From Comamonadaceae bacterium (GTDB taxonomy: Bacteria > Pseudomonadota > Gammaproteobacteria > Burkholderiales > Burkholderiaceae_C), in assembly GCA_947453965.1 (NCBI GenBank), contig CANGIQ010000001.1, forward strand, positions 116,060 to 180,059: a stretch of DNA of 64,000 nt, given 5' to 3'. The notes beneath the pieces were generated by a model. The model was not told where the DNA came from. It did not search any database and saw only the letters and a program-made list of their open reading frames with translations. Of the stretch, positions 1,685 through 29,625 are shown piece by piece (the stretch's first letter is position 1; each line of letters begins with the position of its first letter). The position numbers were made by a program, and so were the translations under genes.

Positions 1685-1727
1685 CAAGCGTCTGCGCACC
1701 TGCGAGTGCTCAGGCGCTTGTTTGTTT
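1685..1727 (+). terminator. Putative rho-independent terminator of the nitroreductase gene
   Basis: CAAGCGTCTG...CAGGCGCTTG inverted repeat (one G-U) followed by TTTGTTT; right arm overlaps the 3' end of the convergent gene. Confidence 0.5.
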
Positions 1728-2861
1728 CAGATCGACCTGCGCGCTTGAAAAATCAGCCACGCCGCTGAGTTGCATGGCGCGGCGCAATTCATCGATCAAG
1801 ATTTCAATCGCCCGGTGTGCGCCTGCTTCGCCGCCCGCACAGGCGCCGAACAGCGCGGCTCGCCCAATGCCCACGGCATTGGCGCCGAGGGCTTTGGCCG
1901 TCAGGGCATCGACGCCGCGTCGCACGCCCGAGTCCATGATCAGCGTGGCGCGCCCTTGTAATGCGGCGTGAATGGCAGGCACGGAGTCGGCCGCCGCGAT
2001 GGCGCCATCGAGCTGGCGCCCGCCGTGGTTGGAGACCCAAATGCCGTCAATCCCCATTTCTGCCATGCGTGCGGCGTCCGCCGTGTGTTGCACGCCTTTG
2101 ACGAGCAGCTTGCCCTTCCACTGGTCGCGCAAGCGGGCCAGGTCTGACCATTGGTAGCTGGCGTTCAGGCTTTGGCCCACGCGTGCAGCGATGGTCAGGC
2201 CCGCGCCTTCTTCGTCCATGAGGTCACGCACGTTTTCAAACTCGGGCAGACCCGCACGCAGCATTTGCCAGGCCCAAGCGGGGTGGGTGAGGCCTTCCCA
2301 AAGGTGCTTGCCTTGGAAGCGCAGGGGAATCGAAATGCCGTTGCGCAAGTCACGCTCACGTTTGCCGCCCACAGGCAGGTCGACGGTGACCACCAAGGCT
2401 TCATAGCCTGCGGCTTGCGCGCGGGCTACCAGCTGGTCGTTGACGCTGGGGTTCTTCAACACATACAGCTGAAACCACAAGCGGCCTTGCACCGCACGCG
2501 CCATGCGCTCAATGCTGGTGGTCGACATGGTGGACAAGGTGTACGCAATGCCGTGCGATGTGGCGGCACGCGCAATCGCAATATCGGCCTCTGGCCAACC
2601 GAGCACGCATGAGCCCATGGGGCTGACCACAAAGGGCGCCGCCCAGGTGTGACCGAAGATGGGCGTGTCGAGTGTGGGTTGGGCCACATCGACCAACACA
2701 CGCGGCACGATGCGGTGGCGTGTGAGCGCATGGCGGTTGTCGGCCAGCGTGCGTTCGTCTTCGGCGCCGCCGTCGATGAATTCAAACACTGAGCGGGGCA
2801 GGCGTCGGCGTGCCATGTCACGCAGATCGTCAATGGAGAGGGCGCGTTCGAGTCGGGTCAT
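1710..2861 (-). CDS. FMN-dependent alpha-hydroxy-acid dehydrogenase/oxidase (mandelate/lactate dehydrogenase family)
   Basis: SIDDLRDMARRRLPRSVFEFIDGGAEDE N-term and WVSNHGGRQLDGA active-site motif; internal ATG at 2861 chosen over the longer ORF because it overlaps the upstream stop (ATGA). Confidence 0.88.
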   Translation of the reverse strand: MTRLERALSIDDLRDMARRRLPRSVFEFIDGGAEDERTLADNRHALTRHRIVPRVLVDVAQPTLDTPIFGHTWAAPFVVSPMGSCVLGWPEADIAIARAATSHGIAYTLSTMSTTSIERMARAVQGRLWFQLYVLKNPSVNDQLVARAQAAGYEALVVTVDLPVGGKRERDLRNGISIPLRFQGKHLWEGLTHPAWAWQMLRAGLPEFENVRDLMDEEGAGLTIAARVGQSLNASYQWSDLARLRDQWKGKLLVKGVQHTADAARMAEMGIDGIWVSNHGGRQLDGAIAAADSVPAIHAALQGRATLIMDSGVRRGVDALTAKALGANAVGIGRAALFGACAGGEAGAHRAIEILIDELRRAMQLSGVADFSSAQVDLKQTSA

Positions 2862-3712
2862 GAGCGCATCGCGTCTGAAGACGGCAAGGTGGTGCCGTGT
2901 TGTTTGAGTGTCACCGCCAGCGTGCTCAAGGCGCGGTAGGCCTGGGCAGCAATGGGGTTCCATTGTTCGACAACTGCAGCTTGCGCATGCACCACGGCGG
3001 TGTCGCCGCGTGCTGCGGGGCCAGTCAAGGCCTGTGCCGGGCCCATGGCCAACAGGTTGTCGGTGGTGCTGGTGAGCAAGGCGCGGTTCAAGGTGTTCAC
3101 CATCTCGGGCGACACGCCCGCGCTGCGCCACGCGTCTTGCGCAATGCCTTGCAACACGCCGGTGAAGTTGCTTGAGAACACCGCCGCAGCGTGGTACAGC
3201 GCTTTGTGTTCGCTGTTGATGTCAAAGCACACGCCGCCAATCGCTGACAAATGCGTACGCAGCCATTCAACCGCCAGTTCAGAACCTTCCAGTGCGCAAG
3301 GTGTGCCCGCAAACTGACGCACCCCTGTTTCAGGTGCAGCAAAGTTCAACACCGGGTGCACGCTGGCGACTTGCCAGCCTTTGGCCTGCAAGGGCGCCAG
3401 GGCTTGTGCGCTTAAAAAACCGCTGCAATGAAACGCGATGGCAGGGGGTGCATCGGGCGCCAAGGTGTCGGCCAATTGCTGGGCCACGTTGGCGATCTGC
3501 GTGTCGGGGACCGAGAGCATCCACACCTCTGCAGCATGCATCTGTGCCAGTTGTGGCACGGCGCTGCCAGCGCCAAGAAAGCGGGCCGCTTGCTCGGCGT
3601 TGGACAGGTTGCGAGAATGAAGGTCTTGCAGCGTGACCTGGTTTTTTTCAAGCAGCAGCCGCGCAATGGTTTGTCCCACGCGGCCGCAGCCGATCACGTT
3701 CAAGCGCTTCAT
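2858..3712 (-). CDS. Rossmann-like / DUF2520 domain protein
   Basis: N-term MKRLNVIGCGRVGQTIARLLLE Rossmann motif; SVHPVLNFA and FSSNFTGVLQGIAQDA pattern of DUF2520 proteins. Confidence 0.75.
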   Translation of the reverse strand: MKRLNVIGCGRVGQTIARLLLEKNQVTLQDLHSRNLSNAEQAARFLGAGSAVPQLAQMHAAEVWMLSVPDTQIANVAQQLADTLAPDAPPAIAFHCSGFLSAQALAPLQAKGWQVASVHPVLNFAAPETGVRQFAGTPCALEGSELAVEWLRTHLSAIGGVCFDINSEHKALYHAAAVFSSNFTGVLQGIAQDAWRSAGVSPEMVNTLNRALLTSTTDNLLAMGPAQALTGPAARGDTAVVHAQAAVVEQWNPIAAQAYRALSTLAVTLKQHGTTLPSSDAMRS

Positions 3713-3730
3713 GTTGGCGTTCCGTCGTCC

Positions 3731-4819
3731 TTAGGCCTTGCGTGTGGCCATGTAGTTGTCGAAGGGCATCTCGCAGAACTGAGACCACATCACTTGCTCG
3801 TCGCGGAACTTAGACCAGGGGGTGTAGATCTTCTTGAACGCAGGGCTCTTTTCAGACAACTCGGCATAGAGCTCAGTGGCGGCTTTGTTGCACATGTTCA
3901 AGACGGGCGTGGGGAAGCGGCGCAATTGCGCACCACCGGCCACCAAGCGGCGCAAAGCCTGTGGGTTGGTCACGTCGTACTTGGCGGTGGACCATTGGTT
4001 GGCTTCTGCGGCGGCCACGCGCAGGGCGGCGGCGTAGTCGGCAGGCAGTGCGGCCATGGCCTTGGGGTTGATGAACAATGACAAGGTTGCCGCGCCCTCC
4101 CACCAGCCGGGGTAGTAATAGAACTTGGCCACTTTGTGCAGGCCCAAGTGCTCGTCATCGGCGGGGCCCACAAACTCGGCTGCATCGAGCACGCCTTTTT
4201 CCAAGGCAGGGTACAAATCGCCCGCCGCCAATTGCTGTGGCACCACACCGAGTTTGGACAAGACCATGCCGGCCAAGCCGCCGACGCGGAACTTCAAGCC
4301 CTTGAGGTCTTCCACAGTTTTGATTTCCTTGCGGTACCAGCCGGCCATTTGTGCACCGGTGTTGCCCACGGGCAGGTGCTGTACGCCATAGTTGGAGAAA
4401 AACTCGTTCATCAGCTCTTGGCCGCCGCCCAAATACATCCAGGCGTTTTGGCCGCGTGCGTTCAGGCCAAAGGGCAGGGCGGTGGCAAAACCAAACGCGG
4501 GATCTTTGCCAATGTAGAAGTAGCTGGCGCTGTGGCCGGCCTCAACCGAGCCGCTTTGCACCGCGTCGAACACTTGCAGCGGTGGCACCAATTCGCCAGC
4601 CGCGTGCATGCTGATTTTGAAACGGTTGTCCGTGAGTTCGGCCACACGCTTACACATGTTGTCGACGGCACCATAAATCGTGTCTAAAGACTTGGGATAG
4701 CTCGACGCCAAGCGCCAACGAATCTCGGGACGGGTCGATTGGGCAATGGCCGGTGCTGCCAATGTCGATGCGATGCCGCCGGCAATGCCTGCGGTGCTGA
4801 CAAATTTTCTGCGTTGCAT
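3731..4819 (-). CDS. TRAP transporter substrate-binding protein (DctP/TakP-like), Tat-type signal
   Basis: MQRRKFVSTAGIAGGIASTLAAPAIAQ leader; AAGELVPPLQVFDAVQSGSVEAGHSASYFYIGKDPAFGFATALPFGL; start refined to ATG at 4819. Confidence 0.88.
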   Translation of the reverse strand: MQRRKFVSTAGIAGGIASTLAAPAIAQSTRPEIRWRLASSYPKSLDTIYGAVDNMCKRVAELTDNRFKISMHAAGELVPPLQVFDAVQSGSVEAGHSASYFYIGKDPAFGFATALPFGLNARGQNAWMYLGGGQELMNEFFSNYGVQHLPVGNTGAQMAGWYRKEIKTVEDLKGLKFRVGGLAGMVLSKLGVVPQQLAAGDLYPALEKGVLDAAEFVGPADDEHLGLHKVAKFYYYPGWWEGAATLSLFINPKAMAALPADYAAALRVAAAEANQWSTAKYDVTNPQALRRLVAGGAQLRRFPTPVLNMCNKAATELYAELSEKSPAFKKIYTPWSKFRDEQVMWSQFCEMPFDNYMATRKA

Positions 4820-4845
4820 GGTGGGTCTCCTGTGGTGAATGAAAG

Positions 4846-5622
4846 TTAAACCTCGGGTGTGGCGTCGAGCATGCGAATGCGTGCTTTCTCCACATGGCTG
4901 CGCATGGCGCGTCGTGCGCCTTCGGCGTCTTGTTGTTTGATCAGTTCGTAAATCGCACGGTGCTCGCCCATGGCGTCTTGGGTGCGCCGCCAGGGCTTGA
5001 GTTGCGCCATGTGTCGCCACAAATTGATGGCGTGGCTGACATCGTATTCGAGCGACTTGAGCACCTGCGCTAGGCGCGGATTGGCACTGGCCTGACCAAT
5101 CGCTTCATGAAAACCAAAATCAAAGTGGTGCGCCACATCGCCCTTGGCCACGGCATCTTCAAAGCCGGTGAGCATGCTTTCCATGCGCTCCAGGTCGGCC
5201 GTGGTGCGTCGCAGCGCGGCGAAGTAGGCGCACTCGGGCTCAATCACCAAGCGCAACTCCAGGCCATGAACCAGGTAACTCATGTCGGAGCCCGTGCTTG
5301 TGGGCGAAGCGGGCACTTTGTGGGTGGCACGCACGTAGGTGCCTGAGCCTTGGATGGACTCGATCAACTGGTCTTTTCGCAGCCGGTCCAGTGCTTGGCG
5401 CACCACCGGGCGCGAGACTTGAAAAAACGCCGCCAATTGGACCTCGGCAGGCAGCCGCGTGTCGGGTGCGAGCTTGCCCGTCATGATGGCGTGGAACAAG
5501 CTCTCGTACACCCGTTCGGCAAAGCGCTCATGGCGCACGGGCTCTAAGCCCAGCTCTTCGGGCGAGCTCAGGCTGACGGTCTCGTCACGCGGGGCAAGAA
5601 GGGCTTTGGCGTCTTTGGGCAT
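4846..5622 (-). CDS. GntR family transcriptional regulator (FadR/FCD subfamily)
   Basis: ESLFHAIMTGKLAPDTRLPAEVQLAAFFQVSRPVVRQALDRL wHTH followed by an FCD-like helical domain. Confidence 0.88.
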   Translation of the reverse strand: MPKDAKALLAPRDETVSLSSPEELGLEPVRHERFAERVYESLFHAIMTGKLAPDTRLPAEVQLAAFFQVSRPVVRQALDRLRKDQLIESIQGSGTYVRATHKVPASPTSTGSDMSYLVHGLELRLVIEPECAYFAALRRTTADLERMESMLTGFEDAVAKGDVAHHFDFGFHEAIGQASANPRLAQVLKSLEYDVSHAINLWRHMAQLKPWRRTQDAMGEHRAIYELIKQQDAEGARRAMRSHVEKARIRMLDATPEV

Positions 5623-5707: not shown

Positions 5708-5790
5708 GGCTGAATTTGGCAGTTTAAGTAAATCCTGTTTACAACTAAAAGCATGCCTCTGGTTTTGTGTTTTCTTCTCTTTCAAGCCTT

Positions 5791-7224
5791 ATGAAACAAC
5801 ATTTCATCAACAACCGCTGGGTGGCGCCTGCCAGCGGCGAGTTCATCCCTGTCATCAACCCCTCGAACGGCCAAACCTTTGACAACTTGGCGCGGGGCAA
5901 TGCGCAAGACATCGATGTGGCTGTGCGCGCCGCACGTGCGGCCTTTGAAGGTCCTTGGGGTCGTTTGACCGCCACCGAGCGTGGTCGCTTGTTGCAAAAG
6001 CTCTCGCAAGCCATGCTCGACCATGCCGAAGAATTGGCCCAGCTGGAATCGCAAGATTGCGGCAAACCGCTCAAACAAGCACGTGCCGATGTGACCGCCA
6101 TTGCGCGTTACTTCGAGTTTTATGCGGGCGCGGCCGACAAGCTCATGGGCGAAACCATTCCCTACCAAAACGGCTACACCGTGCTCACCTTGCGCGAGCC
6201 ACAGGGCGTGACCGGCCACATCGTGCCTTGGAACTATCCGTTGCAAATTTTTGGCCGCAGCGTGGGCGGCTCCTTGGCGGCGGGCAATGCCTGCGTGGTC
6301 AAGCCCGCCGAAGATGCGTGTTTGTCGCTCTTGCGCGTGGCTGAAATTGCGGCCGAGGTGGGCTTTCCTGCGGGTGCCATCAACGTGGTGACGGGCTACG
6401 GCCATGAAGCAGGCGACGCCTTGACGCGCCACCCAGGCATTGACCACATCTCGTTCACCGGCTCCCCCAACATTGGCAAGCTGGTGGTGCAAATTGCGGC
6501 CGAGCACCACACGCCTGTGACCACCGAGCTGGGCGGCAAGTCGCCCCAAGTGGTGTTTGCCGATGCCGACTTGGATGTCTTGGTGCCTGTGGTGGTCAAC
6601 GCCATTGTGCAAAACGCGGGTCAAACCTGTTCGGCAGGCAGCCGCGTGTTGGTGGAGCGCAGCATCTACGAAACCGTGATCGCGCGCCTGACCCAGACGT
6701 TTGAGCAACTGCGTGTCGGCCCTGCCGAGATGGACTTGGATTGCGGCCCCTTGATTCGCCAGACCCAACTGCAACGCGTGAAGGGTTTCTTGGACGAAGC
6801 CCAACGCGACGGTTTGAAAATTGCGGCCCAAGGCCAGCTGGTCAAAGAAGCCTCGTCAGACGGTTTCTATCAAGTGCCCACCTTGATTCGCGATGTGCCA
6901 CCCACGCACCGCCTGGCGCAAGAAGAAGTGTTTGGCCCGGTGGTTGCCATCATGCCGTTTGACGACGAAGCCCACGCGGTCGCGCTGGCCAACGGCACCG
7001 AATTTGGTTTGGTCTCCAGCATTTGGACCCGTGACGGTGCGCGCCAGATGCGCTTGGCGCGTCAGATGCGTTCGGGCCAGGTGTTCATCAACAACTACGG
7101 CGCAGGCGGCGGCATTGAGCTGCCGTTTGGCGGTGTCAAAGCCAGCGGCCATGGCCGCGAAAAAGGTTTTGAGGCTTTGTACAGCTTCACCGTCTTGAAG
7201 ACCATTTCGATCAAACACGATTGA
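5791..7224 (+). CDS. Aldehyde dehydrogenase family protein
   Basis: VTTELGGKSPQVVFADADLDV, NAGQTCSAGSRVLVERSIY, LPFGGVKASGHGREKGFEALYSFTVLKTISI; ATG at 5791 preferred over GTG at 5767. Confidence 0.9.
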   Translation: MKQHFINNRWVAPASGEFIPVINPSNGQTFDNLARGNAQDIDVAVRAARAAFEGPWGRLTATERGRLLQKLSQAMLDHAEELAQLESQDCGKPLKQARADVTAIARYFEFYAGAADKLMGETIPYQNGYTVLTLREPQGVTGHIVPWNYPLQIFGRSVGGSLAAGNACVVKPAEDACLSLLRVAEIAAEVGFPAGAINVVTGYGHEAGDALTRHPGIDHISFTGSPNIGKLVVQIAAEHHTPVTTELGGKSPQVVFADADLDVLVPVVVNAIVQNAGQTCSAGSRVLVERSIYETVIARLTQTFEQLRVGPAEMDLDCGPLIRQTQLQRVKGFLDEAQRDGLKIAAQGQLVKEASSDGFYQVPTLIRDVPPTHRLAQEEVFGPVVAIMPFDDEAHAVALANGTEFGLVSSIWTRDGARQMRLARQMRSGQVFINNYGAGGGIELPFGGVKASGHGREKGFEALYSFTVLKTISIKHD

Positions 7225-7271
7225 GTGCCATTGATCTCGCCTCACACACAGAACACACACGCGGAGCAGCT

Positions 7272-8144
7272 ATGAAAAAAATCGGAATGATCGGCATTGG
7301 CATGATGGGTCACGGCATCGCCACCAACTTGCTCAAGCACGGGCAAGACCTGTCGGTGCTAGAGCATCCTGGCAACCAGCCGCTGGACGCCTTGATCGCC
7401 GCCGGCGCGCACACGTTCAAAACGCCCAAAGACTTGGCCAGCCACTGCGATGTGATCATTTTGTGCGTCACCGGCACGCCGCAAGTCGAAGCCGTGTTGA
7501 CAGGGGACGATGGTGTGTTGCAAGGCCTGCGTGCAGGCACCACCGTCATCGACTGTTCCACAGCCGTGCCTTCGTCGACCGAAAAATTGGCGCAACTCGT
7601 GGTGGCCAAAGGCGGGCTCTTTTTGGATTCACCCATGACGCGCACGCCCAAAGAAGCGGCCGAGGGGCGGCTCAATTTGCTGGTGGGTGGCGATGTGGCG
7701 CTTTTCGAAGCGTGCAAACCCATTCTGTCGTGCTTTGCCGAGAACATCGTGCATGTGGGCCCGATTGGTGCCGGGCACCGCATGAAGCTGTTGCACAACT
7801 ATGTGTCGTTGGGCATGGTCACCTTGTTGGCTGAAGCTGCCGCTTGCGCGCAGCGCTCGGGCGTGCAAGCCCAAACCTTTGTCGATGTGCTCGCCATGGG
7901 CGGTGGCTGGGGTGCGGCGCTGGACCGCTTGAAGCCCTTCTTGGCCAATGGCGATAGCTCGAACTTGCGCTTCAGCATGGCCAATGCGCTCAAAGATATG
8001 AGCTATTACAACGCCATGGCGCAAGACAGCCATGCTGATCACACCGTGGCCGAGGCGGTCAAACGCACCCTGGAGCGTGCTTGCCAGGAAGGTGATCCGC
8101 AAGCCTTGTTGCCCGAGATCATTCCTCTGATCGCTAAGCGCTAA
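7272..8144 (+). CDS. NAD(P)-dependent oxidoreductase, 3-hydroxyisobutyrate dehydrogenase / beta-hydroxyacid dehydrogenase family
   Basis: MKKIGMIGIGMMGHGIATNLLKHG Rossmann motif; FLDSPMTRTPKEAAEGRLNLLVGG and GAGHRMKLLHNYVSLG. Confidence 0.88.
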   Translation: MKKIGMIGIGMMGHGIATNLLKHGQDLSVLEHPGNQPLDALIAAGAHTFKTPKDLASHCDVIILCVTGTPQVEAVLTGDDGVLQGLRAGTTVIDCSTAVPSSTEKLAQLVVAKGGLFLDSPMTRTPKEAAEGRLNLLVGGDVALFEACKPILSCFAENIVHVGPIGAGHRMKLLHNYVSLGMVTLLAEAAACAQRSGVQAQTFVDVLAMGGGWGAALDRLKPFLANGDSSNLRFSMANALKDMSYYNAMAQDSHADHTVAEAVKRTLERACQEGDPQALLPEIIPLIAKR

Positions 8145-8182: not shown

Positions 8183-9265
8183 ATGACCTATGACATCGTG
8201 ACCATCGACGGCGACGGCATCGGCCCCGAGGTGAACCAGTCAGCCATTGAGGTGCTGCGCGAAGCCTGTGGGTCTGCGCTGCTCAACTTCATGCCTTTCG
8301 ACGGCGGGGCAGGGCATTATGTGAAGACCGGTCATGTGTTGCCCGACGAGACCTTGAACGCGTGTCGCAACGCGCATGCCATGTTGCATGGCGCAGCGGG
8401 TTTGCCCGGCGTTACCTATGCCGATGGCACCGAGGTGGGCAACGACTTGCATTTGCAGCTGCGCTTCAAGCTCGATTTGTTTGCCAATGTGCGTCCGATT
8501 CGCTTGTACCAAGGGGTGAAGTCCACCTTGGCCGATTGGTCGGCCGGCCAAATTGATTACGTGATCGTGCGTGAAAACACCGAAGGTCTGTACGCCAGCC
8601 GCGGTGCCGGCGTGAACTTGCGCAACGAATTGGTGACCGACACCCTAGTCATGACCCGCCTGGGTGTGGAACGTGTGGCCAAGTTTGCGTTTGACTTGTC
8701 ACGCCGCCGCAACGGCGCACCGCGCGATCACCAACGCCGTGTGACGGTGTGCGACAAAGCCAACATCTTGAAGACCTATGCCTTCTTTCGTGCCGTGTGT
8801 ACCGAAGTCGCGCAGTCGTATGCCGATGTGGAGATTGACTACGCCTATGCCGATGCCATCACGGTCCACATGCTCAAGAAGCCCGACTTTTACGACGTCA
8901 TCGTGGCCGAGAACATGTTTGGCGACATCATTTCTGATTTGGGCGCCGCCACCGTCGGCGGCCTGGGCATGGCCGCCTCGGCCGAGCTGGGTTTGAACCA
9001 TGGCCTGTTCCAAGGCGCCCACGGCTCAGCGCCCGACATTGCAGGCCAAGACGTGGCGAGCCCGATTGCCACCATCTTGTCCGGCGCCTTGATGCTGCGC
9101 TGGTTGGGCGACCGTCACCACGACGCAACCTTGAGCCAAGCCGCAGACCGGGTAGAGAAAGCGGTGGAAGACGTGCTGGCCCATGGCGACGCCGTGCCGC
9201 ACGACCAAGGCGGCCACGCCCGCTGTACCGAAGTGACGCAGGCGGTGTGCCGCCGTTTGCGCTGA
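8183..9265 (+). CDS. Isocitrate/isopropylmalate dehydrogenase family protein
   Basis: TIDGDGIGPEV, YVIVRENTEGLYAS, DAITVHMLKKPDFYDVIVAENMFGDIISDLGA, GSAPDIAGQDVASPIATILSGALML. Confidence 0.9.
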   Translation: MTYDIVTIDGDGIGPEVNQSAIEVLREACGSALLNFMPFDGGAGHYVKTGHVLPDETLNACRNAHAMLHGAAGLPGVTYADGTEVGNDLHLQLRFKLDLFANVRPIRLYQGVKSTLADWSAGQIDYVIVRENTEGLYASRGAGVNLRNELVTDTLVMTRLGVERVAKFAFDLSRRRNGAPRDHQRRVTVCDKANILKTYAFFRAVCTEVAQSYADVEIDYAYADAITVHMLKKPDFYDVIVAENMFGDIISDLGAATVGGLGMAASAELGLNHGLFQGAHGSAPDIAGQDVASPIATILSGALMLRWLGDRHHDATLSQAADRVEKAVEDVLAHGDAVPHDQGGHARCTEVTQAVCRRLR

Positions 9266-9306: not shown

Positions 9307-9320
9307 GTTAACTGGTTAAC
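9307..9320. promoter_or_regulatory. GTTAACTGGTTAAC repeat upstream of the apnO-like gene, candidate operator
   Basis: Two GTTAAC palindromes separated by 2 bp in the 95-bp intergenic region. Confidence 0.35.
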
Positions 9321-9360
9321 TCGTCATACCATCACGCCACTATATGAGTGGAGTGTTGGA

Positions 9361-10188
9361 ATGACATCAATTGCATTGTTTGGTGCGGGCGGAAAAATGG
9401 GCGCCCGTTTGTCGAAAAACCTGGTCGGCTCACGCTACCAAGTGCGCCACGTCGAAGTGGGCGAGGTCGGGCGCAAGCGCCTGCAAGACGAGCTGGGCAT
9501 CAGCTGCTGCTCGGTCGAAGACGCCTTGAAAGACGTGGACGTGGTGATCTTGGCGGTGCCCGACACCCTGATTGGCAAGCTCGCGGCCGACATTGCTCCT
9601 CAACTCAAAGCCGGCACCATGGTGATGACCTTGGACGCGGCTGCACCGTTTGCTGGACATTTGCCCAAGCGCCCCGACCTGACCTACTTTGTGGCTCATC
9701 CTTGCCACCCCAGCATCTTCAGCCCCGAAGTGCACACCGCTGGCGCGCCCGATTACTTTGGTGGCGTGACCGCTGCGCAGTCCATCGTCAGCGCCTTGAT
9801 GCAAGGCCCTGAAGAGGCGTTTGATTTGGGCGAAGACATTGCCAAAACCATTTACCAACCCATCTTGCGTTCTTACCGTGTGACGGTAGAGCAAATGGCT
9901 TTGCTCGAACCCGGTTTGTCTGAAACCGTGTGCGCCACCTTGCTCGATGTGATGCGCGAAGCCATGGACGAAGTGGTCTCACGCGGCGTGCCCGCCGAAG
10001 CCGCACGTGACTTCTTGCTGGGTCACATGACCATCTTGTCGGCTGTGATCTTCAAACAGATTCCAGGCCAGTTCTCGGACGCGTGCAACAAAGCCATCAC
10101 CTTTGGCAAGCCACGTTTGATGCGCGATGACTGGAAGAACATCTTCGATCACCAAGAGATCGCCGACAGCATCGAGCGCATCACCTGA
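9361..10188 (+). CDS. apnO: D-apionate oxidoisomerase-like dehydrogenase (Rossmann + phosphogluconate-dehydrogenase C-terminal-type domain)
   Basis: N-term SIALFGAGGKMGARLSKNL; FVAHPCHPSIFSPE; C-term FKQIPGQFSDACNKAITFGKPRLMRDDWKNIFD; located with RLP and DUF1537 kinase genes as in described D-apionate clusters. Confidence 0.7.
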   Translation: MTSIALFGAGGKMGARLSKNLVGSRYQVRHVEVGEVGRKRLQDELGISCCSVEDALKDVDVVILAVPDTLIGKLAADIAPQLKAGTMVMTLDAAAPFAGHLPKRPDLTYFVAHPCHPSIFSPEVHTAGAPDYFGGVTAAQSIVSALMQGPEEAFDLGEDIAKTIYQPILRSYRVTVEQMALLEPGLSETVCATLLDVMREAMDEVVSRGVPAEAARDFLLGHMTILSAVIFKQIPGQFSDACNKAITFGKPRLMRDDWKNIFDHQEIADSIERIT

Positions 10189-10241
10189 TTTTTTCTCGCG
10201 CTTTTCATAACAACGATTTCACGTTCAATCCAGGAGACCTC

Positions 10242-11222
10242 ATGACATTTCAAAAGACAGTGCGTATTGCTTCTATCGCTGGTGCCGCTTTGCTGGCGCT
10301 GGGTTCAGTCAGTGCTCAAACCGTGTTGAAAATTGGTTACACGCCCGCGGCAACCTCGCACTACGGTGTAGGCTCGACCGTGCTGTGCGACGAAATCGAA
10401 AAAGGCACCCAAGGTCGCTACAAATGTCAGCAGTTCCCCAGCGGTTCGCTGGGTGGTGAACGTGAAATGATCGAAGCCGTGCAACTGGGCACGCTCGACA
10501 TCGTGAATACCTCCACTGGCCCCGTGGGCAACTTTGTGCCTGAGGTCAAGATCGTTGACATTCCTTTCTTGTTCCGCGACTACGACCACGCCCGCAAGTA
10601 CTTTGACGGCCCCAATGGCCAAGAGTTGTTGACCAAGTTCCCTGCCAAAGGCTTGGTGGCTTTGGCTTGGACCGAAAACGGCTTCCGCCACATGACCAAC
10701 AGCAAGCGCGCTATCGTCAAACCCGAAGATGCTGCGGGCTTGAAGATGCGCACCATGGAAAACAAGGTTCACATGGAAGGCTACCGCGCTTTTGGCATTC
10801 AACCTACACCGATGGCATTCCCCGAAGTGTTTGGTGCTTTGCAGCAAGGCACGGTCGACGGTCAAGAAAACCCCATTCCTGTGATCTTGGCGTCGAAGTT
10901 CTCGCAAGTGCAAAAACATCTGTCCTTGACTGGCCACGTGTATTCACCGGCCTTGTTCTTGACCTCACCCCGCGTGATGAACAAGCTCAGCGACGCCGAC
11001 AAAAAGGTGTTCTACGAAGCGGCCAAAAAAGCCAACATCGCACAACGCCAAAAGGTCAATGAAGACGAAGCCAACGGCATTGCCCAGTTGGAAAAAGAAG
11101 GCATGACCGTGATTCGTAAAGTCGATGGCGTGGCCTTCCGCGAAGCTTTGCGCGCCACCTATGTGAACTACTCGAAAGAGTTTGGCGCTGACAACATCCG
11201 CAAAATTCAAGAATACAAATAA
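10242..11222 (+). CDS. TRAP transporter substrate-binding protein (DctP family)
   Basis: Signal peptide, FPSGSLGGEREMIEAVQLGTLDIVNTSTGPVGNFVPEVKIVDIPFLFRDYDHA, FGALQQGTVDGQENPIPVI. Confidence 0.9.
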   Translation: MTFQKTVRIASIAGAALLALGSVSAQTVLKIGYTPAATSHYGVGSTVLCDEIEKGTQGRYKCQQFPSGSLGGEREMIEAVQLGTLDIVNTSTGPVGNFVPEVKIVDIPFLFRDYDHARKYFDGPNGQELLTKFPAKGLVALAWTENGFRHMTNSKRAIVKPEDAAGLKMRTMENKVHMEGYRAFGIQPTPMAFPEVFGALQQGTVDGQENPIPVILASKFSQVQKHLSLTGHVYSPALFLTSPRVMNKLSDADKKVFYEAAKKANIAQRQKVNEDEANGIAQLEKEGMTVIRKVDGVAFREALRATYVNYSKEFGADNIRKIQEYK

Positions 11223-11236
11223 AGCGATGCGCCTGC

Positions 11237-11275
11237 AAAAGACGGCTCTCACATCCTGAGGCCGTCTTTTTTATT
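11237..11275 (+). terminator. Rho-independent terminator between TRAP receptor and RLP gene
   Basis: AAAAGACGGC ... GCCGTCTTTTTTATTT: 10-bp perfect stem with T-run. Confidence 0.85.
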
Positions 11276-11290
11276 TCAGAAAGTGTTGAG

Positions 11291-12532
11291 ATGACCGAGA
11301 GAATTTACGCGCGTTACTGGTTGGAAACAGGTGACGACCCCCAGCGTGCCGCCGAGGTGATTGCGGGCGAACAGTCCAGCGGCACCTTTTTGAAGTTGGC
11401 CACCGAGACGCCCGCTTTGAAAGAGCGTTCGGGCGCGCGGGTGGAGTCCTTGCAGGTGATTGAGACCGTGGGCGAGCCCAGCTTGCCCGGTGGCATGAAG
11501 TCCAGCACCTACACGCGTTGTTTGCTCGAGTTGTCCTGGCCCTTGGAAAACCTCGGGCCTTGCCTGCCCACCTTGATGGCCACGGTGGCAGGCAATTTGT
11601 TTGAGCTGGCGCAGGTCTCGGGCCTGCGTTTGCTGGATTTGAAATTACCGCCTGCATTTGCCAAAGCCTATCCAGGCCCAGCCTTTGGCATGGCCGGCAC
11701 ACGCCGCTTGAGCGGTGTGGCCAAGGGTCCGCTGATTGGCACCATCATCAAACCCAGCGTGGGTTTGAGTGTGGCCGAAACAGCCCAACAAGTGCAGCTC
11801 TTGGTCGACGGTGGCATTGACTTCATCAAAGACGATGAATTGCAAGCTGATGGCAGCTACTGTCCGTTCGATCAACGTGTCGAAGCGGTGATGCGTGTGG
11901 TCAACGAGGCCAGACAAAAACTGGGACGCCAAGTGATGGTGGCCTTCAACATCACCGGTGACCTGGACCAAATGAAACGCCGCCACGATTGGGTGCTTGA
12001 AAACCAAGGCACCTGTGTGATGGTGTGTTTGAACTCTATAGGCTTGACCGGCTTGACTGCCTTGCGGCAGCACAGCACCTTGCCTATCCATGCGCACCGG
12101 GCCGGTTGGGGTTATTTGAGCCGCAGCCCCTATGTGGGTTGGGACTTTGCCGCGTGGCAACAAATTTGGCGCCTGGCGGGTGTGGACCATTTGCATGTGA
12201 ATGGCTTGCGCAACAAATTCAGCGAACCCGATGAGGTGGTGATTGCTGCCGCGCGTTCGGTGATCAACCCCTTGTTTGAACACGCCCCTATGCATGCCGT
12301 GCCTGTGTTCAGTTCGGCCCAAACGGGCTTGCAAGCCCATGACACCTATGCCGCGTTGGGCAATGCCGATTTGATTTGCACCGCCGGTGGCGGCATTTTT
12401 GGTCACCCCGATGGCGTGGCTTCTGGCGTGACGGCCTTGCGCCAAGCGTGGGAAGCGGCCGAGGCTGGCATTGACTTGGCCAGCTACGCCAAAGACCGTC
12501 CTGCCTTGCAACGCGCCTTGACCTTTTGGTGA
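11291..12532 (+). CDS. oiaX: RuBisCO-like protein (large-subunit family), 3-oxo-isoapionate-4-phosphate-acting OiaX-like
   Basis: GTIIKPSVGLS, GGIDFIKDDELQ (carbamate-Lys motif), IHAHRAGWGYLSR, HLHVNGLRNKFSE, TAGGGIFGHPDG. Confidence 0.8.
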   Translation: MTERIYARYWLETGDDPQRAAEVIAGEQSSGTFLKLATETPALKERSGARVESLQVIETVGEPSLPGGMKSSTYTRCLLELSWPLENLGPCLPTLMATVAGNLFELAQVSGLRLLDLKLPPAFAKAYPGPAFGMAGTRRLSGVAKGPLIGTIIKPSVGLSVAETAQQVQLLVDGGIDFIKDDELQADGSYCPFDQRVEAVMRVVNEARQKLGRQVMVAFNITGDLDQMKRRHDWVLENQGTCVMVCLNSIGLTGLTALRQHSTLPIHAHRAGWGYLSRSPYVGWDFAAWQQIWRLAGVDHLHVNGLRNKFSEPDEVVIAAARSVINPLFEHAPMHAVPVFSSAQTGLQAHDTYAALGNADLICTAGGGIFGHPDGVASGVTALRQAWEAAEAGIDLASYAKDRPALQRALTFW

Positions 12533-12537
12533 ACTCC

Positions 12538-13923
12538 ATGAGCACTTTTCAAAGCCCAACTCCCGCATGGCCCGAAGGGCTGTTGCTCAGCTATTACGGT
12601 GACGACTTCACCGGCTCCACCGATGTGATGGAAGCCTTCACCGCCGCCGGTGTGCCCACGGTGTTGTTTTTGGATTTGCCGCGCATAGAAGACCTGGCGC
12701 GCTTTGGCCATATGCGATGCATTGGTTTGGCGGGTCAGTCGCGCGGTAAAAGTCCCGAGTGGATGCAGCGCGAACTCCCTGCGGTGTTTGAACGCTTGCA
12801 CGACTTGGGCGCACCCGTCTTGCAATACAAAGTCTGCTCCACCTTTGACTCATCGCCCAGCGTGGGCTCGATTGGGCAGGCGATTGACTTAGGGGTCAAA
12901 ACCTCGGCCTCGACGTGGTCGCCCATGGTGGTGGGCGCGCCACGGCTCAAGCGTTACCAAGTGTTTGGCCATCTGTTTGCAGCGGCCAATGGCGCGGTGC
13001 ACCGCATTGATCGCCATCCCACCATGTCGCGTCATCCCGTCACGCCCATGCAAGAAGGGGATTTGCGCGTGCACTTGGCCGCGCAAACCCAGCGCCGCAT
13101 TGAACTGATTGATTTGGCCGAACTCTCTGAAGGGGCGGGGCAAGCACGTTGCACTGCTTTGCAAGGCGACGACCAGCCCGTGGTGATGATTGATGTGGCC
13201 GACACGGCCAGCCAGATCGAAGCCGGCCGTTTGGTGTGGGAAAACCGTGGCGCGGGTGTGTTCAGTGCCTCATCGTCGGGCTTGCAATACGCCTTGGCCG
13301 CTTATTGGCGCGCCCAGGGTTTGATTCCGGCTACACCGAGTTTGCCCGTGGCCAGTGAGGTGCCGTGCATCGCGGTGGTGAGTGGCAGCTGCTCGCCCAT
13401 GAGTGCAGCGCAAATTCAGTGGGCACGCGCCAATGGTTTTGCCACCGAGCGCTTGGACATTGCCAAGTGTTTGGACCCGCAACACGCCGAGGCAGAAATC
13501 GCCCGCTTGGTGCAGGGTGCCTTGGCGTCGATTGCGCAAAAAATTTCGCCCATCGTGTTTTCTGCTGAAGGACCTGACGATCCGTCAGTCTTGAACTTTG
13601 ATGCCACGGCTGCGGCCGCCAACATGAGCAAGAGCGACGCTGCAGCGCGTGTGGGCCATGTGCTGGCCGAGATCATGCGCCAAGTGCTGGATGGCTCAAA
13701 CATTCGCCGCATTGTGGTTGCTGGCGGTGACAGCTCGGGCGCGGTGGGCAGTCACTTGGGCATTCGTGCCTTGACGGTGGAGGCGGGCATGGCGCCCGGC
13801 GTGCCGTTGTGCCGTGCGTGGTCGGATGACCCGCAACGCGATGGCTTAGAAGTCGCGTTGAAAGGCGGGCAATTGGGTGGGCCGAGTTTTTACGGCCAAG
13901 TGCGTTCCGGCCAATTTGCGTGA
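12538..13923 (+). CDS. oiaK: Four-carbon acid sugar kinase family (DUF1537) protein, OiaK-like
   Basis: LLLSYYGDDFTGSTDVMEAF N-term; C-term VAGGDSSGAVGSHLGIRALTVEAGMAPGVPLCRAWSDD; follows RLP gene directly. Confidence 0.78.
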   Translation: MSTFQSPTPAWPEGLLLSYYGDDFTGSTDVMEAFTAAGVPTVLFLDLPRIEDLARFGHMRCIGLAGQSRGKSPEWMQRELPAVFERLHDLGAPVLQYKVCSTFDSSPSVGSIGQAIDLGVKTSASTWSPMVVGAPRLKRYQVFGHLFAAANGAVHRIDRHPTMSRHPVTPMQEGDLRVHLAAQTQRRIELIDLAELSEGAGQARCTALQGDDQPVVMIDVADTASQIEAGRLVWENRGAGVFSASSSGLQYALAAYWRAQGLIPATPSLPVASEVPCIAVVSGSCSPMSAAQIQWARANGFATERLDIAKCLDPQHAEAEIARLVQGALASIAQKISPIVFSAEGPDDPSVLNFDATAAAANMSKSDAAARVGHVLAEIMRQVLDGSNIRRIVVAGGDSSGAVGSHLGIRALTVEAGMAPGVPLCRAWSDDPQRDGLEVALKGGQLGGPSFYGQVRSGQFA

Positions 13924-13938
13924 TGGTAGATTCATGTC

Positions 13939-14646
13939 ATGACTGCTGAACCCATCCAAAGACGAAAGCTCTACCAGGAAGTTCTGGATCGGCTCATGCA
14001 ACGCATTGAGTCCGGTGAGATTGGTCCTGGCGACCAACTGCCTTCTGAGCGTGAGTTGATGGAGGTCTATGGCGTGGGCCGTGTCGCCGTGCGCGAAGCC
14101 ATGCAAGAGCTGGCGCGCTCAGGCATTGTTGAAATCTCGCATGGCGAGCGGGCCAGGGTGGTGGTGCCCACAGCGCATTTGTTGATCGACCAAATTGCAG
14201 GCGGTGCACGTCATTTGATGCGTATGCAGCCTGAAACGCTGGATCATCTCAAAGAAGCGCGCTTGTTTTTAGAGCTGGGCATGGTCAAGCTGGCGGCTGA
14301 AAAAGCCACGCCTGAGGATGTGGAGCGCTTGCAGGCACGGCAGGCCGATCACCGTGCGTCAATGGTCAATCTTGACCAGTTCATGAAGCAAGACATGTAC
14401 TTTCACCGCGAGATTGCGCGTATCAGCGGTAACCCGATTTTCCCGGCCATTGTGGAAGCGATGTTTGGTTGGGCCAGTGCGTATTACCAATCGATTGTGC
14501 GGGCCCCAGGTGCCGAAGAACTGACTTTGGCAGAGCACCAAAAAATCATCGATGCGATTGCGGCGCACGATGCACCTGCGGCCGTCAAAGCCATGAGCGA
14601 CCACCTGACCCGTGCCAGCGATTTGTACCGACAGGCCAACCTCTAA
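13939..14646 (+). CDS. GntR family transcriptional regulator (FadR/FCD subfamily)
   Basis: LYQEVLDRLMQRIESGEIGPGDQLPSERELMEVYGVGRVAVREAMQEL plus FCD-like domain. Confidence 0.9.
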   Translation: MTAEPIQRRKLYQEVLDRLMQRIESGEIGPGDQLPSERELMEVYGVGRVAVREAMQELARSGIVEISHGERARVVVPTAHLLIDQIAGGARHLMRMQPETLDHLKEARLFLELGMVKLAAEKATPEDVERLQARQADHRASMVNLDQFMKQDMYFHREIARISGNPIFPAIVEAMFGWASAYYQSIVRAPGAEELTLAEHQKIIDAIAAHDAPAAVKAMSDHLTRASDLYRQANL

Positions 14647-14672: not shown

Positions 14673-15644
14673 TCATTCGGCCTTCACATCGGCCGCTTTG
14701 ATCACCTTGCCCCAGCGTTCATATTCCGATTGGATGTAACCAGCAAACTCAGCTGGCGATTTGCTGGGATGCACCGTGGCACCGATGGCCGCAAACTTGT
14801 CTTGCACCTCCTTGGTGTTCAAGCCCTTGGCAATGGCCGCATGCATTTTTTGAAGGATGGCCGGGGGCACACCAGCGGGCGCACCCAAACCAAACCAGGG
14901 TGAGACCACCAAGCCTGGGTAGCCCGACTCTTTGGCTGTCGGCACGTTGGGCAGTTGCGGTGAACGCTTGTCAGACAGAACGGCCAGAGCCTTGATGCGA
15001 TCGGCCTTGAGCTGCGGCAGAGCCACCACCAAAGAGCTTTGAAAATCCAGCAGCGTGGAGCCGCCGATCAAATCTTGAATTTGCTGCGTGGCGCCTTTGT
15101 AGGGCACATGGTTGAGTTGGGTGCCTGATTGCATTTGAAACAACTCTGCGGCCAAGTGCGGCACCGTGGCCACGCCGGGTGTGCCATAGGCGAGCTTCTC
15201 GGGATTGGCTTTGGCATAGCTGGTCAATTCAGCCAAGGTGTTGAACGGTGCGTTGTTGTTGGCCACGATGATGGGCGTCATGGCCACCATATTGCTGATG
15301 GGCGCAAAGTCTTTGAAGGTGTCAAACGGTGCATTGCCCAGATGCGGCGCAATCGACACCGTGATCACCAGCAAGCCAATGGTGTAGCCGTCTGCCGGTG
15401 ATTTAGCCAACACGCTGTGACCCAACACACCGTTGCCGCCCGGGCGGTTTTCCACCACGACGGGTTGTTTGAACTCTTCGCGCAAGATGTTGGCGGCTTC
15501 ACGACCGACCAAGTCGGTGGGGCCACCCGCAGGGAAGGGCACGATCAGCTTGATGGGTTTGTTGGGCCAGTCTTGCACTTGTGCTTGCGAGGCCAGAGGC
15601 GCCAAGCAAAGGCCAATGATCAGGCTGCGTAAAAGTTTGTTCAT
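14673..15644 (-). CDS. Tripartite tricarboxylate transporter (Bug/TctC) substrate-binding protein
   Basis: Signal peptide then WPNKPIKLIVPFPAGGPTDLVGR; VVENRPGGNGVLG; start refined to ATG 15644. Confidence 0.93.
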   Translation of the reverse strand: MNKLLRSLIIGLCLAPLASQAQVQDWPNKPIKLIVPFPAGGPTDLVGREAANILREEFKQPVVVENRPGGNGVLGHSVLAKSPADGYTIGLLVITVSIAPHLGNAPFDTFKDFAPISNMVAMTPIIVANNNAPFNTLAELTSYAKANPEKLAYGTPGVATVPHLAAELFQMQSGTQLNHVPYKGATQQIQDLIGGSTLLDFQSSLVVALPQLKADRIKALAVLSDKRSPQLPNVPTAKESGYPGLVVSPWFGLGAPAGVPPAILQKMHAAIAKGLNTKEVQDKFAAIGATVHPSKSPAEFAGYIQSEYERWGKVIKAADVKAE

Positions 15645-15817
15645 GGTGTGAGTTACCTCAAAAGAAGTGCATGGCCAAAAAGCACAGGGGCGATTTCTGG
15701 ATGGTAGAGGGTGGCGCTTGAATCTCTGTCGTATCTGTGACCTTGGGCCGCACCGCCATCGTGTCCAATCCGTTTGCCAGAAGATACTGACACAACAACC
15801 CACTCCCAAAGGATGAC

Positions 15818-17676: not shown

Positions 17677-18696
17677 ATGCAAGTTGCCAAGTCTTGCGCT
17701 TGTGGCATTGACGTGCATGCACATGTCATTCCCGGCGAGTTCCCGAAGTACCTGGGTTCTGTGGTGCCCTCAGGCTGGCCGTCCATGGCCCCCGCACACG
17801 AATGCCACCGCCACGTGATGATCGATGGCAAGAACTACCGCACCGTGTCCGACAAATGCTGGACCACCTCGCGCCGCTTGGCTGACTTTGCCGACATGGG
17901 CTTGAGCCTGCAAGCAATTTCACCCATGCCTGAGTTGCTGTCGTATTGGATGGCGCCTGCTGACGGTGCGCAGCTGGTGCGTTTTTTGAACGAGCAAATT
18001 GCCACCATGGTGCATGAGTCAGGCGGTCAATTGGTGGGCATGGGTGCAGTGCCTTTGCAAGACGTGGCCTTGGCGATTGACGAGCTGCGGTACATGAAAA
18101 CTGCGTTGGGGCTGCAAGGGGTAGAGATTGGCAGCAACATCAACGGCGTGGTGATGGGCGACCCCAAGTTCGATCCATTCTTTGAAGCCTGCGTGGCCTT
18201 GGACATGCCCGTGTTTGTGCATGCCTTGCGTCCCACCGGCATGGACCGCTTGCTCGGGCCTGCGCCCTTGCAGCAGGTCTTGGCCTATCCCACCGATGTG
18301 GGCTTGGCAGCAGCCTCGGTGCTCACGGGCAACTTGATGACGCGTTACCCCACACTGCGCTTGGCGTTCAGCCACGGCGGCGGCACCTTGGCCATGTTGT
18401 TGCCACGCTTGCAGCAAGCCATGTCGGTGTTTCCTGCGCTCAAAGACAGCGTGCAGCGTTCACCCACCGAGCAAGCGCGCGAACTCTATTACGACACCTT
18501 GGTGTTTGACACGTCGATGCTGCGTCACTTGGTACACACCTTTGGCGCCTCGCAGCTCATGATCGGCACCGACTACCCCTTCAACTTCCACGACCAGCGG
18601 CCCGTTGCGCGTCTTCAAGACGCCGGGTTGGATGCCGCTGTGTTGGACCAACTCACCCATGCCAATGCCCGCCGGTTTTTGGGCTTGGCCGCTTAA
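17677..18696 (+). CDS. Amidohydrolase family protein (aminocarboxymuconate-semialdehyde-decarboxylase-like)
   Basis: GIDVHAHVIPGEFP metal motif; LRLAFSHGGGTLAMLLPRL; MIGTDYPF. Confidence 0.82.
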   Translation: MQVAKSCACGIDVHAHVIPGEFPKYLGSVVPSGWPSMAPAHECHRHVMIDGKNYRTVSDKCWTTSRRLADFADMGLSLQAISPMPELLSYWMAPADGAQLVRFLNEQIATMVHESGGQLVGMGAVPLQDVALAIDELRYMKTALGLQGVEIGSNINGVVMGDPKFDPFFEACVALDMPVFVHALRPTGMDRLLGPAPLQQVLAYPTDVGLAAASVLTGNLMTRYPTLRLAFSHGGGTLAMLLPRLQQAMSVFPALKDSVQRSPTEQARELYYDTLVFDTSMLRHLVHTFGASQLMIGTDYPFNFHDQRPVARLQDAGLDAAVLDQLTHANARRFLGLAA

Positions 18697-18711
18697 TTGT
18701 TTGGAGACTTC

Positions 18712-19620
18712 ATGACCCATGCTTCTTCTCGCATCAGCGCGCTGCGCAGTGTGGCGCTCCAGGTGCCCGACCTGGCCGCCGCAGAAAGTTTTTACACCAC
18801 CATCTGGCACCTCGATGTGGCGGCAAGGACGGAGCACGCGATTTACTTGCGTGGCACTGGGGCCGACCACCATTTGCTCGCTCTGCATGAAGCCCCAGGT
18901 CCGGCACAAATTCGGCATGTCACCTTGCGGGCCCGTGACGCCTCGGCACTCGATGCAGTGGCACAGGCCGCTGTCAAAGCAGGTGGCCAAGTGCTGCAAG
19001 CCAAAGCGCCGGTGACCGAGCCTGGCGGTGGTGTGGCCGTGACTGTGGCCGATCGGGATGGACGTATTTTTCAAGTGGTGCATGGCGATGCCATGCATGC
19101 GGATGCGCATGAAGCCAAAGACAAACCGCTGCGCTTGGCGCATGCTGTGCTCAACAGCCACCATGTGGAGGACACCCGTGGTTTCATGGAAGAGGTGTTT
19201 GACTTTTCGCTTTCAGACCGCACCCGCATCATGGCCTTCATGCGTTGCAACAACGACCACCACAGCATTGCCTTGGGCGACACAGACAACGATGCGCTCA
19301 ACCACATCGCCTTTTTGATGCCCGACCTGGATTCGGTCATGCGCGGTGCCGGGCGCATGAAAGACGCGGGCTTCGCCACCGAGTGGGGCCCCGGGCGCCA
19401 TGGCCCGGGCGACAACGCGTTCAACTATTTCGTCGGCCCCTTTGACGTGGTGATTGAGTACACCGCCGAGGTCGAGCAAATCGACGACAGCTACCAAGCC
19501 GGCCAACCCAGTGACTGGACATGGCCGCCTGGGCGGGTGGACCAATGGGGTATTTCGGCGCCGCCAAGCGCGCGTCTCAAAGAGGCCCAAAAGGCCGTTG
19601 TGTTTGTTTCTTCTCTCTAA
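18712..19620 (+). CDS. VOC family protein, type I extradiol dioxygenase-like
   Basis: Two-domain VOC protein; LAHAVLNSHHVEDT, NHIAFLMPDLDS and FDVVIEYTAEVEQIDD fit 2-His-1-Glu metal ligands. Confidence 0.78.
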   Translation: MTHASSRISALRSVALQVPDLAAAESFYTTIWHLDVAARTEHAIYLRGTGADHHLLALHEAPGPAQIRHVTLRARDASALDAVAQAAVKAGGQVLQAKAPVTEPGGGVAVTVADRDGRIFQVVHGDAMHADAHEAKDKPLRLAHAVLNSHHVEDTRGFMEEVFDFSLSDRTRIMAFMRCNNDHHSIALGDTDNDALNHIAFLMPDLDSVMRGAGRMKDAGFATEWGPGRHGPGDNAFNYFVGPFDVVIEYTAEVEQIDDSYQAGQPSDWTWPPGRVDQWGISAPPSARLKEAQKAVVFVSSL

Positions 19621-19637
19621 ACTTTTAGGACATCAGC

Positions 19638-20501
19638 ATGCGTTTCACCACCTTCCACCACAACGGCCAAGATCGTTTGGGCCTGATCGACGGCGATCAG
19701 GTGATTGACTTGAACCAGGCCCAGCCGCAAGTCAACGCCGATCTGCGCTTGGCTTTGAAGTCGGGCGTCGACTTGACTGCCGCTGCCAAAGCCGCCCTGG
19801 CGTCAAGCGCTGCGCGTTTGCCCATGGCCAGCTTGCAGCTCGCGCCCATCATGCCCGAGCCCGGCAAGATCATTTGCTTGGGGCTGAACTACTTTGACCA
19901 CGCCAAAGAAGGCGGGCGCGACAAGCCCGAGTACCCCTGGTTCTTCTTGCGTTCGGCGTCGTCATTGCTGGCACCGAATGCCAAGGCGATTCGTCCACGC
20001 GTGTCTGAGCGTTTCGACTACGAAGCTGAGCTGGCCGTGGTGATTGGCAAAACCGTCAAGCACGCCACCATGGACAACGCCTTGGATGCAGTGTTTGGCT
20101 ACAGCTGCTTCAACGACATTTCGGTGCGTGATTACCAAAAGAAAACACCGCAGTGGACGATTGGCAAAAACTTCGACCAAACCGGTGGCTTTGGCCCCGT
20201 CTTGGTGAGTGCCGATGAGTTGCCGCCTGGCGCCACCGACTTGCGCATCCAATCGCGCTTGAACGGTCAAATCATGCAAGACGCCAACACCCGCGACATG
20301 ATTTGGGGTGTGGCCGAAACCATCACCTTGCTCACCGAGTGCCTGACCTTGGAGCCCGGTGACTTGATCATCATGGGCACGCCTGCAGGCGTGGGCCAAG
20401 CGCGTACGCCACCTGTGTGGATGAAGCATGGCGACACGATTGAGATTGAGATCGAACACATCGGCTTGTTGCACAACACGATTCAGGACGAGGCCGCTTG
20501 A
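19638..20501 (+). CDS. Fumarylacetoacetate hydrolase family protein
   Basis: KIICLGLNYFDHAKEGG, YEAELAVVIGKTVKHA, GDLIIMGTPAGVGQARTPPVWMKHGDTIEIEIEHIG. Confidence 0.93.
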   Translation: MRFTTFHHNGQDRLGLIDGDQVIDLNQAQPQVNADLRLALKSGVDLTAAAKAALASSAARLPMASLQLAPIMPEPGKIICLGLNYFDHAKEGGRDKPEYPWFFLRSASSLLAPNAKAIRPRVSERFDYEAELAVVIGKTVKHATMDNALDAVFGYSCFNDISVRDYQKKTPQWTIGKNFDQTGGFGPVLVSADELPPGATDLRIQSRLNGQIMQDANTRDMIWGVAETITLLTECLTLEPGDLIIMGTPAGVGQARTPPVWMKHGDTIEIEIEHIGLLHNTIQDEAA

Positions 20502-20503
20502 CC

Positions 20504-29587: not shown

Positions 29588-29625
29588 AGCCCGCAAAACT
29601 AAATATCCCCTTGAAGGAGTCACAG

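Follow-up and report, generated by a model that had tools for sequence, protein, structure and literature searches.

A putative D-apionate operon with a probable XacX-type RuBisCO-like protein, an orphan TRAP receptor, and a recurrent dehydrogenase trio in a Comamonadaceae bacterium

D-Apionate is a plant-derived branched sugar acid, and the described systems closest to the locus considered here are those for its degradation and that of D-apiose. The locus occupies positions 9361–14646 of a 64,000 nt stretch (the “window,” G000:C1:116060-180059) of the genome assembly of a Comamonadaceae bacterium (2.95 Mb, 96% complete), a freshwater-type member of the Burkholderiales whose nearest named loci are in Limnohabitans and other Comamonadaceae. 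It encodes an ApnO-type oxidoisomerase, a tripartite ATP-independent periplasmic (TRAP) solute receptor, a RuBisCO-like protein (RLP), an OiaK kinase, and a NanR-like regulator, and is preceded by three dehydrogenase genes, here called the trio. In the XacX-type D-apionate pathway of Xanthobacter (Carter et al., 2018, as cited in a passage of PMC6302742), ApnO and OiaK are shared and the RLP is 67–70% identical, with the same clade membership and active-site residues. Compared to the Xanthobacter locus L099, which has a major facilitator superfamily (MFS) gene, the window has a TRAP receptor without membrane partners, the trio, and a second GntR gene. The OiaX-type pathway (Rhizobium, Agrobacterium, Salipiger) shares ApnO (58–72% identical), the kinase (~44%), and the NanR-like regulator, but the window RLP is 43% identical to true OiaX, fails the OiaX model, and is not accompanied by TIM-family and RpiB-family isomerases. 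Full D-apiose clusters (Shinella L004, Roseibium L010, Paraburkholderia L003, Burkholderia L081) have ApnO, RLP, kinase, and NanR-like regulator in common with the window; they also carry an ATP-binding cassette (ABC) sugar transporter, a Gfo/Idh dehydrogenase, and a large putative lactonase, the latter two without a close match in the window genome. Finally, the D-erythronate/L-threonate TRAP clusters (OtnK/OtnC/OtnI, DenD/LtnD) share the receptor subfamily and the DUF1537 kinase superfamily, but their kinase and lyase types differ, and where they have OtnC, the window has an RLP.

The pathway is already known; the variant is acid uptake, as proposed here, by an orphan TRAP receptor, together with a recurrent dehydrogenase trio. 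New are a conserved putative operator before ApnO, unique in the genome, and the recurrence of the trio with the receptor but never with apiose genes. Literature searches combining apiose with TRAP or with Limnohabitans found nothing.

The locus is quite likely an operon whose products take up D-apionate, as the acid, and catabolize it; D-apionate is the most likely substrate. From gene content, clades, residues, neighbors, a motif, and absences in the genome, all read directly from sequence, we infer the following steps. The TRAP receptor (10242) would capture the acid, using DctQ/DctM encoded elsewhere, most likely the pair in a tetronate cluster of the same genome. ApnO (9361) would oxidize and rearrange D-apionate to 3-oxo-isoapionate, OiaK (12526) would phosphorylate this at C4, and the RLP (11291, XacX type) would cleave the phosphorylated intermediate to 3-phosphoglycerate and glycolate. 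Control of the unit would be exerted by the NanR-like regulator (13939) via an operator before ApnO. The glycolate could be used, since a GlcD-like protein (463 bits, cut at a contig end) is present in the genome. The features of the locus and its upstream neighbors are:

4846..5622, − strand: FCD-type GntR regulator (Pfam GntR and FCD), divergent from the dehydrogenase trio
5767..7224, + strand: aldehyde dehydrogenase (PF00171, 531 bits)
7221..8144, + strand: beta-hydroxyacid dehydrogenase (PF03446 and PF14833; probable start ATG 7272)
8183..9265, + strand: Iso_dh-family (isopropylmalate/tartrate dehydrogenase-like) dehydrogenase (PF00180, 293 bits)
9319..9339, + strand: putative binding site (operator) for the NanR-like regulator, ACTCGTCATACCATCACGCCA, beginning 42 bp upstream of ApnO
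9361..10188, + strand: ApnO-type D-apionate oxidoisomerase, by family (PGDH_C, 240 bits)
10242..11222, + strand: TRAP solute receptor (DctP, 295 bits), without adjacent DctQ/DctM
11237..11272, + strand: hairpin with U-tract, by sequence and fold (intrinsic terminator or attenuator)
11291..12532, + strand: RLP, putatively XacX type (RuBisCO_large, 230 bits)
12526..13923, + strand: OiaK 3-oxo-isoapionate kinase (DUF1537; SBD_N and NBD_C; probable start ATG 12538)
13939..14646, + strand: NanR-like GntR regulator (GntR and FCD; NF003011 passed)

A preliminary description of this DNA had listed the five genes from 9361 to 14646 in this order, and all five open reading frames (9361, 10242, 11291, 12526, 13939) are intact, on the + strand, and carry the expected Pfam domains, including those of its receptor, ApnO-like enzyme, and GntR regulator. 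Intergenic gaps are −7 to 68 bp, and the gene order is kept in Limnohabitans and other species, so that the arrangement is far beyond chance. On the same strand, the series begins at 5767 and ends at 14646 (gaps −7 to 95 bp), so that it comprises three genes more than first listed. Not included in the preliminary description were the trio (5767, 7221, 8183), the divergent GntR gene (4846), the lack of TRAP membrane subunits, and the hairpin between receptor and RLP.

As first proposed, the kinase is an OiaK, passing the curated equivalog NF042436 with 789.6 bits (cut-off 700) and failing the 3-oxo-tetronate kinase (OtnK) model NF043035 (185 bits, cut-off 350). The genome's own OtnK, ~95 kb away, mirrors this, with 650 bits on the OtnK model and 141 on OiaK. 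The ApnO protein is of the PGDH_C type, in the same family as those of D-apiose clusters, and has a 273-residue match to the solved structure 5t57; it matched no curated ApnO model in an NCBIfam profile search, and its close orthologs occur in XacX-type and OiaX-type clusters alike.

The kinase scores also bear on whether the cluster degrades D-erythronate or L-threonate instead, as its receptor family and DUF1537 kinase family might suggest. A tetronate pathway for the window cluster was rejected on these scores, and a separate L-threonate/tetronate cluster with its own TRAP system is present in the genome, leaving this reading very improbable. That cluster lies outside the window at C1:25.2–31.9 kb (L209:9185-15904) and comprises LtnD, DctP, DctQ, DctM, OtnK, OtnC, and OtnI; against their cut-offs, LtnD scores 460/350, OtnK 650/350, OtnI 357/325, and OtnC 218/250 bits.

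The RLP is the sole RuBisCO-family protein in the genome. It had been named OiaX, and OiaX is indeed its best NCBIfam match (440 bits, E 7e-132), but at 440.1 bits it fails the OiaX equivalog NF042437 (cut-off 700). In a 65-row tree it falls in a 37-row clade (support 99/99) apart from the OiaX clade (100/100, branch length 1.32). With Xanthobacter rows added, the window and Xanthobacter RLPs share a 46-row clade (SH-aLRT 98), nested in an 87-row clade (SH-aLRT 94) free of OiaX, which is again separate (100, branch length 1.58). The Xanthobacter RLPs are from collection genomes and are not identified as those of the characterized strain; 4 of 14 Xanthobacter genomes carry a window-clade RLP, and none carries another RLP besides RuBisCO. 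OiaX-passing proteins were found in six of 399 genomes sampled from the phylum, all within one family; the 301 genomes examined from the window's own family had none, and annotated OiaX examples are on plasmids of Rhizobium, Sinorhizobium, and Salipiger.

Active-site residues show the same division (a Xanthobacter RuBisCO served as reference, with spinach numbering assigned by motif). All 84 window-clade rows examined retain K175, K201, D203, E204, H292, H294, R295, H327, K334, and S379. In OiaX, the metal and lysine residues are retained as well, but H325 and H327 are replaced by Q (the latter in 7/7) and S379 by G or C, mostly G. Thirty positions are fixed differently between the two groups, including N102 (RuBisCO N123 by motif) and E27 (E60) in the window clade, which are G and D in OiaX. 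Retention of more RuBisCO residues by a hydrolyzing RLP type would fit its chemistry. Neighboring genes also differ: TIM-family and RpiB-family isomerases adjoin true OiaX in 5/8 loci, as would be needed by a decarboxylase making L-erythrulose-1-phosphate, and were found in 0/106 loci of the window RLP's group (with the window itself scanned over its full 64 kb), related loci entering these counts more than once.

The NCBIfam name for OiaX is 3-oxo-isoapionate-4-phosphate decarboxylase. For the transcarboxylase/hydrolase, the gene name is taken to be XacX and the products 3-phosphoglycerate and glycolate, following the EC entries. The review PMC6302742 reports, in a sentence on the pathway of Carter et al. 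(2018), the RLPs of A. radiobacter K84 and Xanthobacter; it ties the reaction credited to OiaX in the preliminary description to the second, Xanthobacter type. The window RLP is assigned to this second type because that sentence is read as “respectively,” in combination with the NCBIfam name of OiaX. The protein is best interpreted as a XacX-type 3-oxo-isoapionate-4-phosphate transcarboxylase/hydrolase, although no curated model for this type was matched here. The pathway type first proposed therefore stands, its products are probably correct, and its kinase groups as anticipated; the RLP falls into another apionate RLP group, so the name OiaX does not hold.

A divergent OiaX, decarboxylating 3-oxo-isoapionate-4-phosphate to L-erythrulose-1-phosphate, might be argued from the best NCBIfam match, the shared kinase family, and the ApnO gene upstream. 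It seems improbable given the score far below cut-off, the rarity of true OiaX in the phylum and its absence from the family sample, the separate clade, the other active-site residues, and the lack of isomerases; OiaX identity was rejected on these grounds. Two easily confused RLPs, the decarboxylase OiaX and the putative transcarboxylase/hydrolase XacX, can be told apart by residues, clade, and neighbors in combination; annotation pipelines label XacX-type proteins as generic RuBisCO large-subunit family protein. Two further RLP clades, 44–54% identical to the window RLP, were encountered in L006, L007, L009, L021, L025, L028, L035, L040, L041, L065, and L069. Three of these loci, on annotated plasmids (L006, L007, and L009), have a DUF1537 kinase after the RLP, in L006 and L009 along with a fused TRAP permease, and ApnO was not found within ~9 kb; these appear to be unassigned RLP pathways.

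Uptake as the acid is suggested by what the genome does not appear to encode. The preliminary description had noted that apiose dehydrogenase and apionolactonase were missing from the window, and this extends to the whole genome: a protein search found no relative of the apionolactonase ApnL and only weak relatives of the apiose dehydrogenase ApsD (best 27% identical). D-Apionate is therefore probably taken up as such. The receptor has no DctQ/DctM genes beside it, either in the window cluster or in the sister genome G261; in Limnohabitans loci L077 and L078, DctQ/DctM lie between receptor and RLP. Fourteen DctP and 10 DctM genes are present in the genome, and every one of the DctM genes has another DctP nearby. 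One of these receptors, in the tetronate cluster with its DctQM (C1:29.9–30.9 kb), is an 85% identical paralog of the window receptor, and the DctM of that cluster is 87% identical to the Limnohabitans DctM. On the simplest reading, the orphan receptor would share this pair, ~95 kb away. Its nearest solved structure is 4pdd, and the rows closest to it by tree path are receptors encoded next to ApnO. The TRAP unit of Halomonas is joined by D-erythronate dehydrogenase genes, which in the map also match the query region for OtnI, and in some Burkholderiales DenD/OtnI/OtnC adjoin a second receptor of the same subfamily.

Related loci (~100) were mapped by tblastn, and the 83 of 15 kb or more were used for counts. 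They have a common core of ApnO (72/83), RLP, kinase, and NanR-like regulator, with entry modules of three types. Type A (21/83) is the D-apiose set: an ABC sugar transporter, a Gfo/Idh enzyme, and a large protein that no Pfam model matches; same-clade RLPs are found with such genes in Shinella, Roseibium, and Paraburkholderia, in clusters matching the described D-apiose route. Type B has the TRAP receptor, often with an aldehyde dehydrogenase (ALDH), an alcohol dehydrogenase of either the beta-hydroxyacid (HIBADH) or the short-chain (SDR) type, and an Iso_dh or true tartrate dehydrogenase-type (TTC) protein. Type C (15/83) has an MFS transporter. ALDH is present in 18/30 loci with the receptor vs. 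1/53 without it (Fisher p 1.8e-9, ignoring kinship), and in 0/21 loci with the D-apiose genes ApsD/ApnL (Fisher p 0.002, likewise ignoring kinship); 13 of the 19 ALDH loci also have Iso_dh or TTC. On the tree, there are only 6–9 independent contrasts: nearly all informative ones agree in direction, and the opposite direction is almost never seen, but independent-pair sign tests do not robustly reach 0.05 (median p 0.06–0.25).

These associations make it possible, if somewhat doubtful, that the core has a sugar acid other than D-apionate, or a broader range of them, as substrate, the trio and tetronate-type receptor feeding another branched or C4–C5 acid into or out of the ApnO–OiaK–RLP chain. 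Besides the recurrence of trio and receptor without ApsD/ApnL, the ApnO…GntR series itself includes ALDH and SDR genes in Rhodoferax and a Burkholderiales bacterium (L093, L101), with TTC as well in Rhodoferax. The nearest solved receptors were crystallized with D-erythronate. Ligands co-purified with TRAP receptors may not be native, however (PMC11668362); full D-apiose clusters have an ApnO, RLP, and kinase from the same families and clade; and the pair tests are equivocal, as described above.

Several points weigh against the D-apionate operon proposed here. The dehydrogenase trio is no part of the described apionate route. An empty protein search alone is no proof that an apionolactonase is absent, and the assembly is 96% complete. 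The division of activities between two RLPs rests on a single review sentence, the NCBIfam name of OiaX, and the EC entries. Relatives of the receptor are found not only in ApnO clusters but also in those for D-erythronate and L-threonate, and so do not show apionate to be the ligand.

The trio enzymes themselves are not closely assigned. The aldehyde dehydrogenase reached the cut-off for none of the 25 NCBIfam families shown, the 8183 Iso_dh protein was below every NCBIfam equivalog cut-off, and the family nearest to the 7221 dehydrogenase was tartronate semialdehyde reductase TIGR01505 (165 of 340.75 bits, below cut-off). A role for 7221 as tartronate semialdehyde reductase alongside glyoxylate carboligase was considered and is unsupported, the best Gcl score in the genome being 338 of 711 bits. 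Protein Data Bank neighbors of two of the trio enzymes were generic only. The trio and the divergent GntR gene are conserved neighbors in Limnohabitans, where L077 and L078 have a 68–69% identical regulator in the same divergent position; the culturable relative L. parvus II-B4 carries the complete set. The linkage recurs across Burkholderiales, Halomonas, and Jiella, with HIBADH swapped for SDR and Iso_dh for TTC, which are non-orthologous; TTC replaces the 8183 protein in other genera. Halomonas has the trio on the opposite strand, and in the sister genome G261 (L169/L213) HIBADH and ALDH are ~8 kb from ApnO and Iso_dh was not found: the trio is undergoing rearrangement within the genus.

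Such mobility might be expected if the trio were an unrelated, neighboring tartrate-like catabolic unit under its own GntR regulator (4846). That regulator's conservation in Limnohabitans and the conserved operator between trio and ApnO, by which ApnO would have its own promoter region, point the same way, but recurrence of the linkage despite non-orthologous replacement of two members, and a location within the ApnO-led series in Rhodoferax and its relatives, make this rather unlikely. The trio is probably a linked second module oxidizing a related sugar acid. More speculatively, receptor and trio could form an oxidative route not yet described, acting on branched or C4 sugar acids and either parallel to the RLP apionate route or feeding it. 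In one conceivable but doubtful example, a tartrate-type diacid would arise by oxidation of a tetronate or of the CH2OH of D-apionate, and its oxidative decarboxylation would give a 2-oxo-tetronate; it is a similarly tentative suggestion that the genome's OtnI/OtnK/OtnC could then take 2-oxo-tetronate further. The set recurs in freshwater, soil, and halophilic bacteria in connection with plant-derived acid sugars.

At the regulatory level, the 13939 protein passes the NanR-subfamily model NF003011 (305 bits, cut-off 260), and is conserved in most related loci. The pattern TCATACCATnAnnCCA, allowing one mismatch, has 23 matches in 1.87 Mb, 20 of them no more than 160 bp upstream of a gene on the same strand: 18 before ApnO, and two before an operon-heading MFS gene. 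The reversed pattern has no matches in the same 1.87 Mb. Positions 9319–9339 are the genome's only perfect site for the longer operator form, offering a testable regulon with a single operator. The site has the form of a direct repeat, TCATACCA/TCAnnCCA, which recalls the tandem repeats to which E. coli NanR binds, and it is here that the NanR-like regulator would act. Since it separates the trio from ApnO, the two may be separate transcription units. In two Rhodobacterales loci (L111:9254 and L115:9254), a TGGTATGACCAGTATACCA-like site resembling the reverse complement of the ApnO operator precedes the NanR-like gene. The hairpin with U-tract between receptor and RLP is kept in G261 (L169) with a different stem sequence, although a simple terminator scan did not flag it in the window; it may set receptor above enzyme levels.

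Elsewhere in the window, a 2-hydroxyacid dehydrogenase at 59204, mentioned in the preliminary description as of the D-glycerate/glyoxylate type, is in the glyoxylate reductase family but below cut-off (326 of 455 bits), and nothing links it to the cluster. The − strand at 1710–5020, next to the divergent GntR gene, encodes an FMN-dependent hydroxyacid dehydrogenase, a DUF2520 protein, and a second orphan DctP. What looks like an aromatic ring-cleavage set is found at 17677–22087 (Amidohydrolase_2, VOC-type protein, FAA hydrolase, and FAD monooxygenase, beside a LysR regulator). Five TctC-family receptors occur within ~20 kb (14673–15809, 22123–23097, 26831–28468, 29467–30615, and 33892–34875); directly after the last is a galactarate/altronate dehydratase-family protein (34879–36393), possibly part of a second acid-sugar unit.

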